Assembly: GCA_003696155.1 (NCBI GenBank)
Contig: RFFP01000013.1
Location: 1 to 64,000, forward strand
Reading direction: 5' to 3'
Length of the DNA: 64,000 bases
Origin: Acidobacteriota bacterium
Lineage (GTDB): Bacteria; Aquificota; Aquificia; Aquificales; Aquificaceae
The translations under genes and the position numbers were made by a program. Below, piece after piece: positions 20,157 through 26,312 of this stretch. The first letter of the stretch is position 1. Every line of letters begins with the position of its first letter. The notes under the pieces were generated by a model that was given only the letters and a program-made list of their open reading frames with translations, was not told the DNA's origin and ran no database searches.

Positions 20157-20174
20157 CGTGAAGTTTGCGTGAAG
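20157..20174 (+). repeat. GTGAA direct repeat upstream of pilA (copy 1)
   Basis: CGTGAAGTTTGCGTGAAG contains two GTGAAG units 11 bp apart, 92 bp upstream of the pilA ATG. Similar 11-bp-spaced pairs lie upstream of the two leftward minor-pilin starts. One helical turn between direct repeats is typical of OmpR/PhoB-family activator sites; that function is inferred. Confidence 0.4.
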
Positions 20175-20708: not shown

Positions 20709-20726
20709 ATACCTTTGGGGGAGACT

Positions 20727-21089
20727 ATGTATAATGGGTGGTATAGCAGGGCTTTCACCATAGTTGAGCTCATAGTTGTGATTTTTTTGCTTGTTATCCT
20801 TGCTTCTACAGCTGTAGTTTATTATAGTAAGTACAGGAAACAGGCTATAAGGACAGTGCTTATATCTGACCTCAGAAACTGTATAACCTATATAGCGGCA
20901 AGTCAGCAAAGCACACAGGAGGGAGATATTTCGGGGGTTGTTGCGAGGTGTCCAAGGTCTGGGGACACCCAATCCATTGAACTGGTAAGCGAAAACCCTG
21001 TAGTTCTTAGGGCTTCTTCGGTGGATGAAAACCTTTCCTGCATTTACCATAACAATGGAAGGGTGGAATGCCATTCACCTTTTGATTGA
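20727..21089 (+). CDS. Second type IV pilin-like protein
   Basis: A 120-residue pilin-like protein. Its N-terminal segment is SRA|FTIVELIVVIFLLVILASTAVVYYSKYRKQA, and the region after the helix (KYRKQAIRTVLISDLRNCITYI) resembles the same part of PilA (KYRKRSAASQVMADARNCVTEV), so the two are paralogues. The residue at -1 of the cleavage site is Ala, not the usual Gly. ATG 20727 has GGGGGAGA just upstream; the track uses TTG 20715. It sits just after the pilA terminator, so it may be read by leak-through. It is convergent with the minor-pilin operon. Confidence 0.78.
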   Translation: MYNGWYSRAFTIVELIVVIFLLVILASTAVVYYSKYRKQAIRTVLISDLRNCITYIAASQQSTQEGDISGVVARCPRSGDTQSIELVSENPVVLRASSVDENLSCIYHNNGRVECHSPFD

Positions 21090-21125: not shown

Positions 21126-23009
21126 TCATCCTTGTAATGGCTGCCATGTAGGCGGGTGTTGGATTTCCCTTACGCAGTCCACCCTTCTTACAAACCAAAA
21201 GCCTGGGAATCCCTGCCTGCTTTGGTCATACCTTATGTTGTTTATGGCGTCAAGCCTGAACCTGAAATCAATAGCAGAGTCAAAGCCTATGGATAGAGAG
21301 AGGTTCGCCGGAAAGTTTCTTATTAAAAAGCCTCTCACTACGTTAGGTTGTCCACTGGTACGAAGTATATAGTTAACATCCTGACCGAAGTATATACCAC
21401 CGAAGAAGTTTTGCCTTCCTGCCACAACGGAGTTGTTGTTTATCAGAAGGGAGACAAGGGGCCTGCCTGTGGCATCCTGTATGTTTCTATTTGCGTCTGT
21501 GCCAAAAAAGGCGTCGTTCTGCATGCTAGGTCTTGTACCCGTGCCACCAGCCCATCCACACCTACGGATATCATTTTGACAGGCGTTTACAGAGCCTAAG
21601 TTTGAATCCCTTGAGCAGTTGGGGCACGCATGGGCATAAACAAAGAATAGGTCCCTATGAGCGTTAAGAATTCCGAACCTTACCTGCCTTGTTATAAGCT
21701 TGGAGTCGGTTATGTTAAGGGTTCCTGTGCCATTTCCAACAATCATATTCTGAGGTGAGGCAGGGTTGTTATTCTGAGTGTCATTTTCTAAAACCTGAAA
21801 GATGGACGCCTCGCTTAGGGTGAGCCCAGTTGTTACGTTTATGGTTCCTGTGGTGAGCAATCTAAACCTTAAAGAGTTGGCGGTTACGTTCACATTACCA
21901 CCTGAATAGATAACCAGCCTGTATATAAACTCTCCAAAGCTTGTAGTAGGTTGGACTGTTGGGCTACCTATCACACCGGCCAAGGTTAGGGTTCTACTCT
22001 GACCTGCGGGGTTTCTCAAATAGACGACCGTTGGGATGGGCGGTGTGCCAGCTATTGTGGTGCTCTGGTCAAGATAGAGCTCCACCCTCTGACAGCTTGC
22101 CCCACCGGGTATGAGGTTATCAAGTAGGGTCAAAAGGTTGCTTAGGTTTATGTTTGCATTGGCTGGGGTTGTCGGTACCTGCAGTCTGCAGTTGGGTGGA
22201 CCCTGAGGAGTTATAGAAGCGGTGCTTCTGATGTCGCTAAGGAGGGCCTGATTTATCACGGGCTCACCATGTTGGGAAAAGGTAAAGTCGGGCCTGCCAT
22301 CCCTATACTGAAGGGCATAGGTGTCCACAAGGGCATCGGTGAGACCATATCTACATCTTTCACCCGCTCTGTAGTAATTGGAGGCAAAGCATTCAACATT
22401 GAAAAAGAGGGGCACAAGGTCTCTAAACTGGGCATTGGTAAAGGTTGGTGGTGTTCCCCATACACCTGTATTTGGGTTTGTTTGATTAGTCGGACAGCTC
22501 TGCGGGTTTGCGCTACCAAGGCTTATAGTACCAGACGATGCTATAAAGGCTGGGACAAAGCAGTTTCCACTCTGTTCATAATAGCAGCCTGTCAAGAGGC
22601 CACCGGTGTAGCTAGCGTCCACGCCACCACGGACTGTGTAGAGGCCTACGCCAAAAAAGGACTGTATCATAGAAGTTGTATAGACTTCGGAGTTACCGAA
22701 TCGTCCTACCGACCTTAAGAAGCATATACGGCCGCTCTGCCTAAACTCAACCTCACAGGTACCACCTGTTAGCTGTATACCGAGCTGCTGATTGTTTAAC
22801 CTTCTATCTCCACAGAAACCTGTAGCTTGAACCTCGTCTGTTGCACGCATAATGCAGGCGTTGGATGCCTCCTTTGCAAGCTGAAAATTAACAGTAGACA
22901 GAGTAGTTCTCTGTGCTATGTTTGTTACGGTATAGCCTGCTGTTATTATTAGGGCTATTATACCAGATAGGGCTATAACCGTAGGAAGAGCAAAACCTCT
23001 CTTTCTCAT
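21126..23009 (-). CDS. Large minor pilin-like protein (PilX/GspK-like N terminus)
   Basis: A 627-residue protein that starts like a minor pilin: KRG|FALPTVIALSGIIALIITAGYTV, with a short leader and a single hydrophobic helix, but Thr instead of Glu at +5, as in GspK-type tip subunits. The remaining ~590 residues are unusual for PilX (~200): Asn/Thr-rich, probably beta-rich, with many cysteines in pairs (ACPNCSRDS, CQNDIRRCGW). It is the last gene of the leftward operon after FimT-, PilV- and PilW-like genes, which is where PilX or PilY1-type tip proteins are found. A role as a large pilus-tip adhesin is inference. Confidence 0.72.
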   Translation of the reverse strand: MRKRGFALPTVIALSGIIALIITAGYTVTNIAQRTTLSTVNFQLAKEASNACIMRATDEVQATGFCGDRRLNNQQLGIQLTGGTCEVEFRQSGRICFLRSVGRFGNSEVYTTSMIQSFFGVGLYTVRGGVDASYTGGLLTGCYYEQSGNCFVPAFIASSGTISLGSANPQSCPTNQTNPNTGVWGTPPTFTNAQFRDLVPLFFNVECFASNYYRAGERCRYGLTDALVDTYALQYRDGRPDFTFSQHGEPVINQALLSDIRSTASITPQGPPNCRLQVPTTPANANINLSNLLTLLDNLIPGGASCQRVELYLDQSTTIAGTPPIPTVVYLRNPAGQSRTLTLAGVIGSPTVQPTTSFGEFIYRLVIYSGGNVNVTANSLRFRLLTTGTINVTTGLTLSEASIFQVLENDTQNNNPASPQNMIVGNGTGTLNITDSKLITRQVRFGILNAHRDLFFVYAHACPNCSRDSNLGSVNACQNDIRRCGWAGGTGTRPSMQNDAFFGTDANRNIQDATGRPLVSLLINNNSVVAGRQNFFGGIYFGQDVNYILRTSGQPNVVRGFLIRNFPANLSLSIGFDSAIDFRFRLDAINNIRYDQSRQGFPGFWFVRRVDCVREIQHPPTWQPLQG

Positions 23010-23012
23010 GAT

Positions 23013-23930
23013 TTACCTCCCAAAGAAACGCTGTATGGTGATTGCTCTGCCTTCTTGGTTTACCTGCATATTCACAAGCACACCGGCGTTTGGAACTTGT
23101 TCAATTTGGAAACTGTTAACCCTAACAATTGGTATGGGTGGCTCATTCCAATTGCAGTTGTTAGCCATGTCTGTTGTTTCCACGTATAGCCATAGGTTGT
23201 TATTGTCCTGCGGATTGTTCTGGCAGAAGAACCTTATCCTGTGGGGCACTCTTACAAGCATGTCTCCACCCTCCAGGGTCAGCTGGTCTGTAAGTATTCT
23301 TGTGTTTCCCTGAAAGGTTTCCAGCTGTCCGTTTTGAGCCCTGAGTATAAGGTTCATGGTAGCATTATTTCTGTTTGTCTCCCTACTGCAATCGAGGTTA
23401 TCCTGACTAAGACCACCCACACTAAAAATGAGAGGTATGGTGGGGTTGTTTGCATCTCTGAATACCCTTGCACCTCTCCACACATGGTAACAATTTTGCT
23501 GAACCGTTTGATTTAGCCTGCAGCTCATGACCGCAACTTGGTTTATACCTTGAAGCCTGTCAACAAAAGCCATCCCACCGATGCTTCCAAAGAAGACAAC
23601 TTCATCGCAAGGTTCACCTTCGTTTCTAAGCATGTATAGGGCACTGGCTGGTGGATAGGGCACGTTTATAGGTCTGTTAGAGTCAAACTGGGGGCGACCG
23701 CAGGCGTTGGGGTCAACCTGGTTAAAACAGGCTACACCCACACCCCACCTTTCAAAAAACCATTCAAGGCCGTATATACCCTCTTTGGTACTTTCTTTTA
23801 CAAAAGAAAGCTCCCTGTTTATAGCAAAAACCCTGTTTGCTACCACATAAACCCCAACCGTGGCGATAACTATCAAAAGAGAGATGGCCACAGCTGTCAG
23901 GAGCTCCACGATAGTAAAACCTTTTTTCAT
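23013..23930 (-). CDS. Minor pilin PilW-like
   Basis: A 305-residue minor pilin with MKKG|FTIVELLTAVAISLLIVIATVGVYVV (four-residue leader, Glu at +5) and a large C-terminal domain with paired cysteines. Length and position between PilV- and PilX-like genes match PilW. Minor pilins of this type prime pilus assembly from the tip. GGAGG lies just before the ATG (GGAGGTTGAGATG on the minus strand). It is separated by 3 bases from the next gene. Confidence 0.8.
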   Translation of the reverse strand: MKKGFTIVELLTAVAISLLIVIATVGVYVVANRVFAINRELSFVKESTKEGIYGLEWFFERWGVGVACFNQVDPNACGRPQFDSNRPINVPYPPASALYMLRNEGEPCDEVVFFGSIGGMAFVDRLQGINQVAVMSCRLNQTVQQNCYHVWRGARVFRDANNPTIPLIFSVGGLSQDNLDCSRETNRNNATMNLILRAQNGQLETFQGNTRILTDQLTLEGGDMLVRVPHRIRFFCQNNPQDNNNLWLYVETTDMANNCNWNEPPIPIVRVNSFQIEQVPNAGVLVNMQVNQEGRAITIQRFFGR

Positions 23931-23939
23931 CTCAACCTC

Positions 23940-24329
23940 CTAAAACCTACAAACAGGGGAGTTTATCCTTGCAATTCTGCCTGAAGCTTGCGATGTAACC
24001 TGAACCACAGCACAGGCTCTTTGATTTGAGCCTGGTGGGGGTGGGTTGGGTGGCAGTGTGCCAGAAACTATAGTAGAAGTCGAATCAATCCGTATTCCGC
24101 CACAACCATAGGTAAAGCTTTGACCTATCATATTCGGGTCAGCCTTAACTCTCTCTAGGGTAGAAATCGTGTATTCCCAAAGGCAGTGGTTTATAAAATC
24201 CTGTCTGGTCGCATTAATAAATTGGGCTACAAATGCCATAGTAAACATAACCAAAAGGGAGAGGATGCCCAGAGCAATTAGCGCCTCAGTTAGGGAGTAC
24301 CCTTTATCTAACTGCATGAACTTGGACAT
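23940..24329 (-). CDS. Minor pilin PilV-like
   Basis: A 129-residue minor pilin with leader MSKFMQLDKG and helix YSLTEALIALGILSLLVMFTMAFVAQF; the EALIAL motif with Glu at +5 is typical of PilV/GspI. The remaining domain is small with four cysteines. It overlaps the upstream FimT-like gene by 22 bases. A 24-residue fragment very similar to its N terminus lies at 25116-25190 and appears to be a decayed duplicate. Confidence 0.8.
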   Translation of the reverse strand: MSKFMQLDKGYSLTEALIALGILSLLVMFTMAFVAQFINATRQDFINHCLWEYTISTLERVKADPNMIGQSFTYGCGGIRIDSTSTIVSGTLPPNPPPPGSNQRACAVVQVTSQASGRIARINSPVCRF

Positions 24330-24796
24330 GTTCCTCCTCCTCTTTGAGTTCTTATACCACCAAACCTGCTAACACAGACAAGAAGATAATTGCTTCTACC
24401 TTCATAGGTGTTCTGTATGCATGCATTACCACTCCATATGGCAAAGCCCCTCGGATCAAAGGCAAAACCGGAACCAGTAAAGTTCATATAGAGAATATCT
24501 GTACCTTCAATCCTTAATGTCTTTAAAGTATTACCGTTGCATATGTTTGCACCCCTAGCAGTGCCTATATCTAAAATTACCACAGTATGGCTGTCCCTTA
24601 TACATACACCCACGTTTGTAGTCCTTTCCATGGCGAGTAGCTTAGCCTGTCTTATAGACATCTCAAGAGAAGAAGCGTACTGTTGATAAACATAGATGTT
24701 CCTGTATTTGTACAGTTGGGGCACAGCTGTACTGGCTAACAGTGCTATAACAGCAATAACAACCAAAAGTTCCACAAGACTATAGCCCCTTCTCAT
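24308..24796 (-). CDS. Minor pilin FimT/GspH-like
   Basis: A 162-residue minor pilin: MRRG|YSLVELLVVIAVIALLASTAVPQLYKYRN, then the GspH/FimT core (SSLEMSIRQAKLLAMERTTNVGVCI ... GFAFDPRGFAIWSG). It is first in the operon FimT-PilV-PilW-PilX. No Shine-Dalgarno is seen; TATTAA ends 6 nt before the ATG on the minus strand, a leaderless candidate. Upstream lies an 11-bp-spaced TTTCAC repeat. The broken gene at 25187-25671 is a paralogue with the same core motifs. Confidence 0.82.
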   Translation of the reverse strand: MRRGYSLVELLVVIAVIALLASTAVPQLYKYRNIYVYQQYASSLEMSIRQAKLLAMERTTNVGVCIRDSHTVVILDIGTARGANICNGNTLKTLRIEGTDILYMNFTGSGFAFDPRGFAIWSGNACIQNTYEGRSNYLLVCVSRFGGIRTQRGGGTCPSSCS

Positions 24797-25115
24797 GGTT
24801 TATTAATATTTGTCATATTCAAACCACCTTGCGTGAAACTTCTGTGAAACATCTTAATGATTTAATTGATTAAGAGGTCTAAGCCTGCCTGTGCATTGGG
24901 GAGGACGCATGAGATTTGGATAAATCTGGGAAAGTCTATTAAGAATGCTCTGTCCAAGAATTCTATTAGGGTCTCCCTAACCTGAGTATCCCCTGTCCTC
25001 ATCAACTCCACCACACTCACCTCCTACACAACCCCAGCTATGATAAGCGGTGGTGCTATTACCAACTCCTCGTTATACTGACTCCACTCCCTACTCATGG
25101 GTAGGCATTTTATCT
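24797..25115. other. Non-coding spacer with possible degraded coding sequence
   Basis: This stretch carries the promoter side of the FimT-like gene and no convincing gene. On the minus strand one frame reads as protein-like sequence interrupted by a TAG. The latter part (24862-25014, about 50 residues, GTG start with GGAGGTG upstream) is open but matches nothing I recognise. It most likely holds decayed sequence left between the broken and intact minor-pilin copies. Confidence 0.4.
24832..24849 (-). repeat. TTTCAC direct repeat upstream of the FimT-like gene (copy 2)
   Basis: On the minus strand TTTCACAGAAGTTTCACG has two TTTCAC units 11 bp apart, its near edge 36 bases from the start codon. 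TGATTTAA lies 26 bases further along the plus strand, at the same offset as in copy 3. The placement next to a weak promoter fits an OmpR/PhoB-type activator site (inference). Confidence 0.45.
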
Positions 25116-25190
25116 CTAAAACCCTTTTTGGACAAGGCAGAAGGTAATAAGAATAGCAATTAACCCTTCCACTAAACTAAACCCTTTCAT
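25116..25190 (-). pseudogene. Truncated PilV-like remnant
   Basis: A 24-codon remnant, MKGFSLVEGLIAILITFCLVQKGF then TAG. The first 18 residues are a prepilin N terminus (KG|FSLVEGLIAIL with Glu at +5) closest in style to the intact PilV-like gene (KG|YSLTEALIALGIL). It breaks off in the middle of the membrane helix, so it cannot make a pilin. Its ATG overlaps the stop of the broken FimT-like gene (ATGA), reproducing the FimT-PilV gene order of the intact operon. Confidence 0.65.
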
Positions 25191-25671
25191 TGACATGCCT
25201 CCCTTCTTATAAGCCCTCTTAAGGCTTGAATTGTATACCTTTGACATGTTTCAGGGTCGTCTGTTCTTCTTATATAAATGCTTGTGCTTACTATAGCTAA
25301 GCCCCTAGGGTCAAACCCCGTGCTTCCTACAGAGGTAAGAGAGATAAAACCCTCATCTACAGCTAACCTTTTAAGCAAGGCGCTCGAGCAGGCATCCAAA
25401 ATATTCCTTGAGGTGCCCATGTTGGTCACTAGTAATTCCCTCCCCTGAACACAAATACCGACGTTCGCGCTCCTTTCCATCGCTGTAAGCCTTGCCCACT
25501 TTAATGTACTTTCCACTTGAAGCAAATACTCATTATTTATATATCCTTGTAGTAGCGCATCACATAGGGAACCGCAACAGCAGCAAGTATAACCAATATA
25601 ATACTCACTATTATGACTTCTACTAATGTAAATCCCTTTTCAGATCTGGGGGTGAGTTCAACAGTCTTCAT
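25187..25671 (-). pseudogene. Frameshifted FimT/GspH-like minor pilin
   Basis: Two frames together encode a FimT-like pilin. The first (25671-25537, 44 residues) is MKTVELTPRSEKG|FTLVEVIIVSIILVILAAVAVPYVMRYYKDI and stops at TAA. The second carries the core (INNEYLLQVESTLKWARLTAMERSANVGICV ... GFDPRGLAIVS) and runs to 25187. Compared with the paralogue (YRNIYVYQQYASSLE), adding one TA unit to the repeat at 25538-25544 would restore KDIYINNEYLLQVE. So the gene has lost 2 bases in a TA run. The ORF track shows only the second frame, from a TTG. Phase variation or a sequence error cannot be excluded. Confidence 0.75.
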
Positions 25672-25705
25672 ATTTTATAAGTATGTTGAATTCCATGGTC
25701 CTTTA

Positions 25706-25723
25706 TGTGAAATCTATGCGAAG
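25706..25723 (-). repeat. TTCAC direct repeat upstream of the broken FimT-like gene (copy 3)
   Basis: The plus strand reads TGTGAAATCTATGCGAAG: two GYGAA units 11 bp apart, its near edge 35 bases from the broken gene's start, almost identical in placement to copy 2. TGATTTAA again lies 26 bases further on. This indicates that the upstream region was duplicated with the genes. It also lies 80-97 bases before the divergent tpx start. Confidence 0.45.
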
Positions 25724-25802
25724 CCCCTTCATGATTTAACTCATCAATATGTTTTATAAACAACCTTTAAAATAGTGGATAAAACCATAAGGAGGTTATG
25801 CC

Positions 25803-26312
25803 ATGGCTCAGACTGTAAATCTGAAGGGAAACCCGGTAGCTCTCTGCGGTCCTACGCTGAAGGTGGGGGACCCTGCACCAGTTGCCTACGTGGTAACAAA
25901 GGACCTTCAGGAGATAGCAATAGGTGGTCCAAGCGATAAGGTGCAGGTGATAGTGACTGTGCCTTCTTTGGACACGCCCGTATGTGAAACGGAGACAAAG
26001 AAGTTCAACGAGCTTATGGCTGGTATGGACGGTGTGGCTGTCTGCGTTATTTCCATGGACCTGCCCTTTGCCCAGAAGAGGTTTTGCGAAAGCTTTAACA
26101 TAGGTAACGTGGTGGTCGCCTCCGACTTCAGATACGGTGATATGGAAAAGTACGGCGTGCTCATATCTGAGGGAGCCCTAAAGGGTATCCTTGCAAGGGC
26201 TGTTTTTGTGGTGGACAAGACGGGCAAGATAGCCTATATACAGCTTGTGCCGGAAATAACCACCGAGCCCAACTACGACGAAGTCATAGCAAAGGTAAAA
26301 GAGCTTCTCTAA
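25803..26312 (+). CDS. tpx: Thiol peroxidase (Tpx-type peroxiredoxin)
   Basis: Atypical 2-Cys peroxiredoxin that reduces hydrogen peroxide and alkyl hydroperoxides in the cytoplasm using thioredoxin. The peroxidatic site is PSLDTPVCETET (C61) and the resolving cysteine is in KRFCESF (C95), at the distance expected of Tpx. At 169 residues it has the family length. AAGGAGGTTATGCC supplies a strong Shine-Dalgarno. It is monocistronic or followed weakly by the DUF3276 gene. The upstream 130 bases are shared with the broken pilin gene. Confidence 0.96.
   Translation: MAQTVNLKGNPVALCGPTLKVGDPAPVAYVVTKDLQEIAIGGPSDKVQVIVTVPSLDTPVCETETKKFNELMAGMDGVAVCVISMDLPFAQKRFCESFNIGNVVVASDFRYGDMEKYGVLISEGALKGILARAVFVVDKTGKIAYIQLVPEITTEPNYDEVIAKVKELL

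Follow-up and report, generated by a model that had tools for sequence, protein, structure and literature searches.

Minor pilins form the tip of the pilus, and the displacement of a gene or operon in situ by a xenologous one is a known concept. In the type IVa systems of Pseudomonas, Legionella and Myxococcus, the minor pilins are encoded by an operon of the order fimU/fimT-pilV-pilW-pilX, as two accounts describe (PMC8897410, PMC13190605), and they are so variable that a broad survey omitted them from its trees (PMC6668835). The myxobacterial account also describes, for PilY1.3, the horizontal acquisition of pilus-tip components, with transfer inferred from trees (PMC13190605).

The minor-pilin locus examined here resembles the type IVa operon in its gene order, its N-methylation motifs, the GspH domain of FimT and its position adjoining pilA/pilE and pilMNOPQ, but differs in that the two operon types found at this locus, types I and II, are without pilY1. 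Judging from the gene sequences, we consider it quite probable that a native type II operon was replaced in situ by a non-orthologous type I set and that the old copy was half deleted. Such an event would be like known xenologous displacement in that a non-orthologous, probably equivalent operon lies at the native site and a relic of the displaced one is left. It would differ in that a four-gene set is concerned rather than one gene, in that both ends of the displaced operon are readable, and in that the newcomer appears to have a copy of the resident control block. With myxobacterial PilY1.3 it would share the exchange of pilus-tip genes of one operon class across lineages, whereas a relic of the displaced operon is described here and none in the available part of that account (PMC13190605). 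The event is ordinary in kind, an operon displacement in situ, and unusual in the amount of the intermediate that is preserved.

The outer relic and the inner operon

We analysed a window of 64,000 nucleotides inside a 77-kb contig of the draft genome of a heat-loving bacterium (1.47 Mb in 37 contigs, completeness 99.99%, contamination 0.27%). Here pilM-N-O-P-Q (to 20110) are followed by pilA, a second pilin gene, the inner operon PilX-PilW-PilV-FimT on the minus strand (21126-24796), the relic of an outer copy (24862-25671) and tpx (25803-26312, plus strand), which is 87-95% identical in same-genus genomes and serves as the flanking anchor; the minor-pilin operon is linked to pilA and pilMNOPQ. 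Type II is the lineage of the genus's own operon; type I occurs in other Aquificaceae genera too and is, in our sample, confined to the Aquificaceae. The C-terminal halves of types I and II are hardly alike.

A second, frameshifted fimT (25187-25671, minus strand) does adjoin the intact fimT-pilV-pilW-pilX operon, as the sequence-only reading had noted. Its N-terminal part (25543-25671, minus strand) carries the prepilin N-methylation motif (Pfam N_methyl, E 1.6e-8) in a first frame that terminates in YYKDI*, and its C-terminal part (25187-25567, minus strand) carries the GspH/FimT domain in the next frame (Pfam GspH, E 4.6e-6), both above the cut-off. In the inner FimT N_methyl is above and GspH below the cut-off (E 0.014), and in PilV and PilW N_methyl is weaker and below it. 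The C-terminal part of the outer FimT is 51-55% identical to fimT products of the same-genus genomes G010, G012 and G013 (E 1e-32 to 1e-34) and 35% identical to the inner FimT, and in the tree the outer FimT falls inside the type II clade (support 97/97). An assembly error could account for the frameshift by itself, but not for the deletion described below.

The 24-residue PilV-like stub (25116-25190, minus strand; 24 codons and a stop) follows the outer fimT through an ATGA overlap at 25187-25190, as claimed, and matches the type II PilV profile with an E value of 3.5e-7. It is 79, 67 and 53% identical to the PilV proteins of these three same-genus genomes over 19-21 residues (79% over 19 residues for G010), and gave no significant match to the inner PilV. 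The same overlap had also been claimed for the inner pair, where it is absent, because the inner fimT stops at a TAG (24308-24310) and overlaps the pilV start by 10 or 22 nt.

At 24887-24958 (minus strand) lies a relic of the outer operon's pilX C-terminus, LGQSILNRLSQIYPNLMRPPQCTG, which is the type II PilX C-terminal signature (compare FNSSIISRLNQMYPSLVKPPSCGG in G020). Among all six frames of the 64-kb window it scores best against the type II C-terminal profile of PilX (E 0.004); it also gave a tblastn E value of 5e-5 against the G020 PilX C-terminus, and is not matched by the type I PilX profile. When individual PilX C-termini served as tblastn queries on the window, none of the matches listed was convincing, and it took a profile to find this relic. 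The decayed second copy proposed earlier thus stands as regards its operon start, but not in its extent: because the type II PilX C-terminus survives too, the relic comprises both ends of an operon and not the start alone. Between about pilV residue 18 and the PilX motif lie 2520-2812 nt in G010, G013 and G012, compared with about 0.19 kb here, and together with the surviving C-terminus this shortened spacing implies a net loss of about 2.3-2.6 kb from the middle of the operon. Full-length type II profiles found no more pieces of pilV, pilW or pilX at 24960-25119, and the relic ends about 40 bp from the promoter element of the inner operon. On these matches, the outer relic is almost certainly the native type II operon after an internal deletion. 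A 52-codon open reading frame at 24862-25020 was considered as a gene and rejected, as it has no relatives; the PilX relic lies in the adjoining frame.

The inner genes, all on the minus strand, have other relatives. The intact inner fimT (24308-24796) is outside the type II clade; the intact pilV (23940-24329) is 40% identical to the type I PilV of G068; the intact type I pilW (23013-23930) is 41-44% identical to those of G067, G046 and G068, which represent two other genera, compared with 34-36% for the type II copies of the genus; and the type I pilX (21126-23009) is 32.5% identical over 658 aa to that of G067a and 21-24% to type II. In the trees the inner PilW belongs to the type I clade with 97/97 support (100/99 for the type II clade of the genus) and the inner PilX with G046 and G067a in type I (100/100). 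AU tests rejected a grouping with the genus type II for both PilW (p 2e-8) and PilX (p 4e-70). The FimT tree by itself does not place the inner FimT with type I; moderately supported, it stands there with Thermodesulfovibrio, its nearest relative (82/86), and an Acidobacteria genome, and a search of the genome contigs with it gave matches only in one genome of each. From these comparisons we have little doubt that the inner operon is of a different lineage from the outer genes, which are orthologues of the genus's own operon. The type I relatives, found in g4 and g11 genomes, are just 35-44% identical to the inner genes. The last 16 or so codons of the inner pilX are apparently in a frame other than that of its relatives, the frame 2 end reading NPTPAYMAAITRMTSW*, and this anomaly is either real or an assembly error. 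At 21126-21260 (minus strand) the frame adjoining the pilX end carries the expected type of C-terminus (TRMTSW* versus TELTAY*). Elsewhere in the genus, G012 has a PilW in which the peptide GDSDMADSC is repeated in tandem, and the repeat leads into masked sequence (L071 11396-11663).

Promoter element, control block and putative regulator

Both fimT starts are preceded by an 11-bp direct repeat, YTTCACN5TTTCAC in the gene sense. The exact copy GTGAARN5GTGAAR at 24833-24849 (plus strand; TTTCACN5TTTCAC towards the inner fimT) is 36 bp from the inner start, and a copy with one mismatch at 25707-25723 (plus strand) is 35 bp from the outer start; the near-equal distance and the occurrence of TGATTTAA at the same offset in both starts bear out what had been read from the sequence. 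A third copy (20158-20174, plus strand, sense orientation) lies just upstream of the TTGACC -35 box of pilA. Five exact sites occur in the 1.47-Mb genome and none for a reversed-pattern control. With two mismatches TTTCACN5TTTCAC is at chance level (141 sites versus 176 control sites), and the analysis was therefore confined to exact or near-exact sites in orthologous positions. A role as a dispersed repeat or DNA-uptake sequence was rejected, because the whole 1.47 Mb contain only 5 exact copies, of which the pil locus has 2.

Across Aquificaceae genomes the element is found 4-6 bp upstream of the TTGACA-like -35 box of pilA. It also occurs near the pil genes of Thermodesulfovibrio. Besides the window, the loci in which these sites were noted are L114, L115, L117, L119, L125, L135 and L139. 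The genus type II operons have it 35-50 bp upstream of fimT in the orientation opposite to that at pilA; in the relatives the distance is 38-50 bp, and the orientation agrees with that at the two starts of the window. Type I operons of G046, G067 and G068 are without the element, unlike the inner operon, which has it at the native place. We regard GTGAARN5GTGAAR as a candidate pilin regulon site. In G010 and G013 two intact fimT genes, fimT1 and fimT2, stand in tandem (L070 10234-11236; L072 9351-10365), with the element at fimT2 only and not at fimT1.

The two starts of the window, and these only, have in common a 41-bp block made up of the element and the TGATTTAA region (24833-24873 and 25707-25747, plus strand; 30/41 positions alike). 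The DNA similarity between the starts is weak, consisting of these 30/41 bp and of 20/24 bp inside fimT. Upstream of tpx, 11 of 11 aligned genomes have kept a TGAY.TA..TCAT-like motif, even those in which tpx lies far from pilus genes, and in the outer block it corresponds to TGATTTAACTCATC (25732-25745). Because this motif is kept in the 11 genomes, TGATTTAA belongs to the tpx promoter and not to the pilin promoter, and the inner start has tpx-side sequence without an adjoining tpx. The motif is likely a regulatory site of the peroxiredoxin gene; TTAAAATA lies further downstream of it in the tpx upstream regions L164-L175.

The likeness of the two blocks could also be convergent, with one regulator and selection keeping similar sites and no promoter DNA duplicated. 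Such an origin has in its favour that many genomes conserve the element at pilin promoters; we nevertheless think it doubtful, since the matches go on beyond the element (18 of 24 bp, compared with 3-8 of 24 for other pairs of genus fimT promoters that have it), 18 matches are reached by 6 of 200,000 random AT-rich pairs, and the TGATTTAA part belongs to a gene that the inner operon does not adjoin. It is fairly probable that the block was copied from the tpx-fimT region, although the likeness is moderate evidence because the comparison was made after the data had been seen. Of the duplication including the promoter that the sequence-only reading proposed, the shared ancestry of the control region is what holds up (30/41; 18/24), and the duplication of the operon falls away.

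Proteins of the OmpR/PhoB family bind direct repeats 11 bp centre to centre, as with ArcA (PMC3798270). Here too two direct repeats stand 11 bp apart upstream of the -35 box, though the half-site is GTGAAR and regulator binding is putative. Such repeats occur at promoters of genes that function together, namely pilA-type genes of several Aquificaceae and fimT operons. In Thermodesulfovibrio (L068) the stretch from pilQ to pilA includes genes for an OmpR-family regulator and a kinase, and the element occurs twice in their vicinity. A 41% identical relative of this regulator is encoded in the present genome (C37:6709-7344) next to a kinase-like gene, and its receiver and Trans_reg_C domains are confirmed. 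Most of the Aquificaceae genomes searched have a close orthologue (61-82%), and in the Aquifex- and Hydrogenobaculum-like G016 and G023 the matches are just about 40%. By analogy with these systems we lean slightly towards a response regulator acting through the repeat. The literature searched yielded no described pilus regulator for the Aquificota.

Replacement, coexistence and duplication

The replacement reading has to join five observations: the orthology of the outer relic, the different ancestry of the inner genes, the internal deletion, the common locus and the common control block. The resident orthologue is present both as a relic and at the same locus in G010, and the functional copy is of the other lineage by the PilW and PilX trees. 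According to the replacement reading, the native type II operon would have lost its interior from about pilV codon 20 to near the pilX end, the outer fimT would have lost its frame, and the type I set, whose likeliest source is some other Aquificaceae bacterium, would have come to occupy the same slot between tpx and pilE/pilA; the direction, the donor and the order of these events are our proposal. The inner operon would now supply the minor pilins for the pilus tip and for priming, and its transcription would be driven by a copied version of the resident tpx-fimT control region, whose 11-bp direct repeat probably binds a regulator of the OmpR/PhoB family. Since the inner operon appears to use this copy with its repeat, the newcomer would be plugged into the resident pilus regulon. 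The second pilin gene (pilE-like, 20715-21089, plus strand) is 46-47% identical to those of G109 and G110 and 42% to that of G046; same-genus genomes match its N-terminal half only, and because its full-length relatives lie outside the genus, the foreign block may include it.

Alternatively, an ancestor of the genus had types I and II side by side and every lineage retained one of them, with no recent transfer and the outer copy being lost now. This would fit the restriction of type I to the Aquificaceae in our sample, the native element at native spacing in both promoters, a base composition that is not foreign, and, through differential loss, the patchy distribution of PilW matches (17 of 136 Aquificota genomes). 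On the other hand, both types stand intact side by side in no sampled genome, type II occurs in 3 and type I in none of 13 same-genus genomes, and the type I relatives are at loci other than the tpx-pilA slot and without the element. We hold ancient coexistence to be rather unlikely, and acquisition of the inner operon by transfer, rather than its retention from an ancient pair, appears probable. The replacement reading has against it that the type I relatives are so distant, that the FimT tree does not place the inner FimT with type I, and that the inner operon has an ordinary GC content; base composition as a sign of transfer was uninformative.

The sequence-only reading took the locus for a native operon duplicated in tandem along with its promoter, with a decayed outer copy, as the same gene order and the 41-bp block at both starts might suggest; yet an AU test rejected the inner and outer FimT as a sister pair (p 3e-4), the outer copy is nearer to four other genomes than to the inner copy that it adjoins, and the inner PilW and PilX are placed with strong support in another clade. 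The copies are not each other's closest relatives, and the refuting observation that this reading had named, relatives with the outer genes as an unrelated, older cluster, is borne out in that the outer genes are orthologues of the genus's own operon; duplication of the operon is very improbable. Also very improbable is a draft assembly in which alleles of two strains were stitched together, for although the genome is in 37 contigs and shows two frame anomalies (the outer fimT and the inner pilX end), its completeness and contamination values are good, both operons lie in the one 77-kb contig with orthologous flanks, and a clean internal deletion that keeps both operon ends is not readily produced in this way.

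The tpx-pilA slot in the genus

The locus is a conserved tpx-minor pilins-pilA site. G010 has the same order of tpx, minor pilins, pilE-pilA and pilQ with type II in the slot. Its DNA resembles that of the window as far as the 5' part of pilA; beyond this point similarity returns in the outer fimT and tpx alone. In G007 a DUF3782 gene adjoining tpx matches its G013 counterpart at 91% DNA identity, and this likeness stops short of the operon, which is type II in G013 and a hardly similar PilY1-FimT-PilV-PilW-PilX operon in G007 (L077 1357-8128). Because the same DUF3782 gene precedes both, the slot has received new contents. Beside tpx, G013 and G010 have arrays of 4-5 Uma2-like genes (L072 4872-7576; L070 11280-14144), and the window is without them.

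Possibly, and we put this forward tentatively, the tpx-pilA slot of the genus is a standing site of exchange for whole minor-pilin operons (type I, type II and PilY1), with newcomers activated by capturing a copy of the tpx-fimT control region. The half-deleted old operon beside its probable replacement would show in which order such a swap proceeds and where its limits lie, and the conserved element offers a testable pilin regulon for the Aquificota. If the slot is indeed such an exchange site, pilus tips would be swapped as modules while their regulation stays constant.
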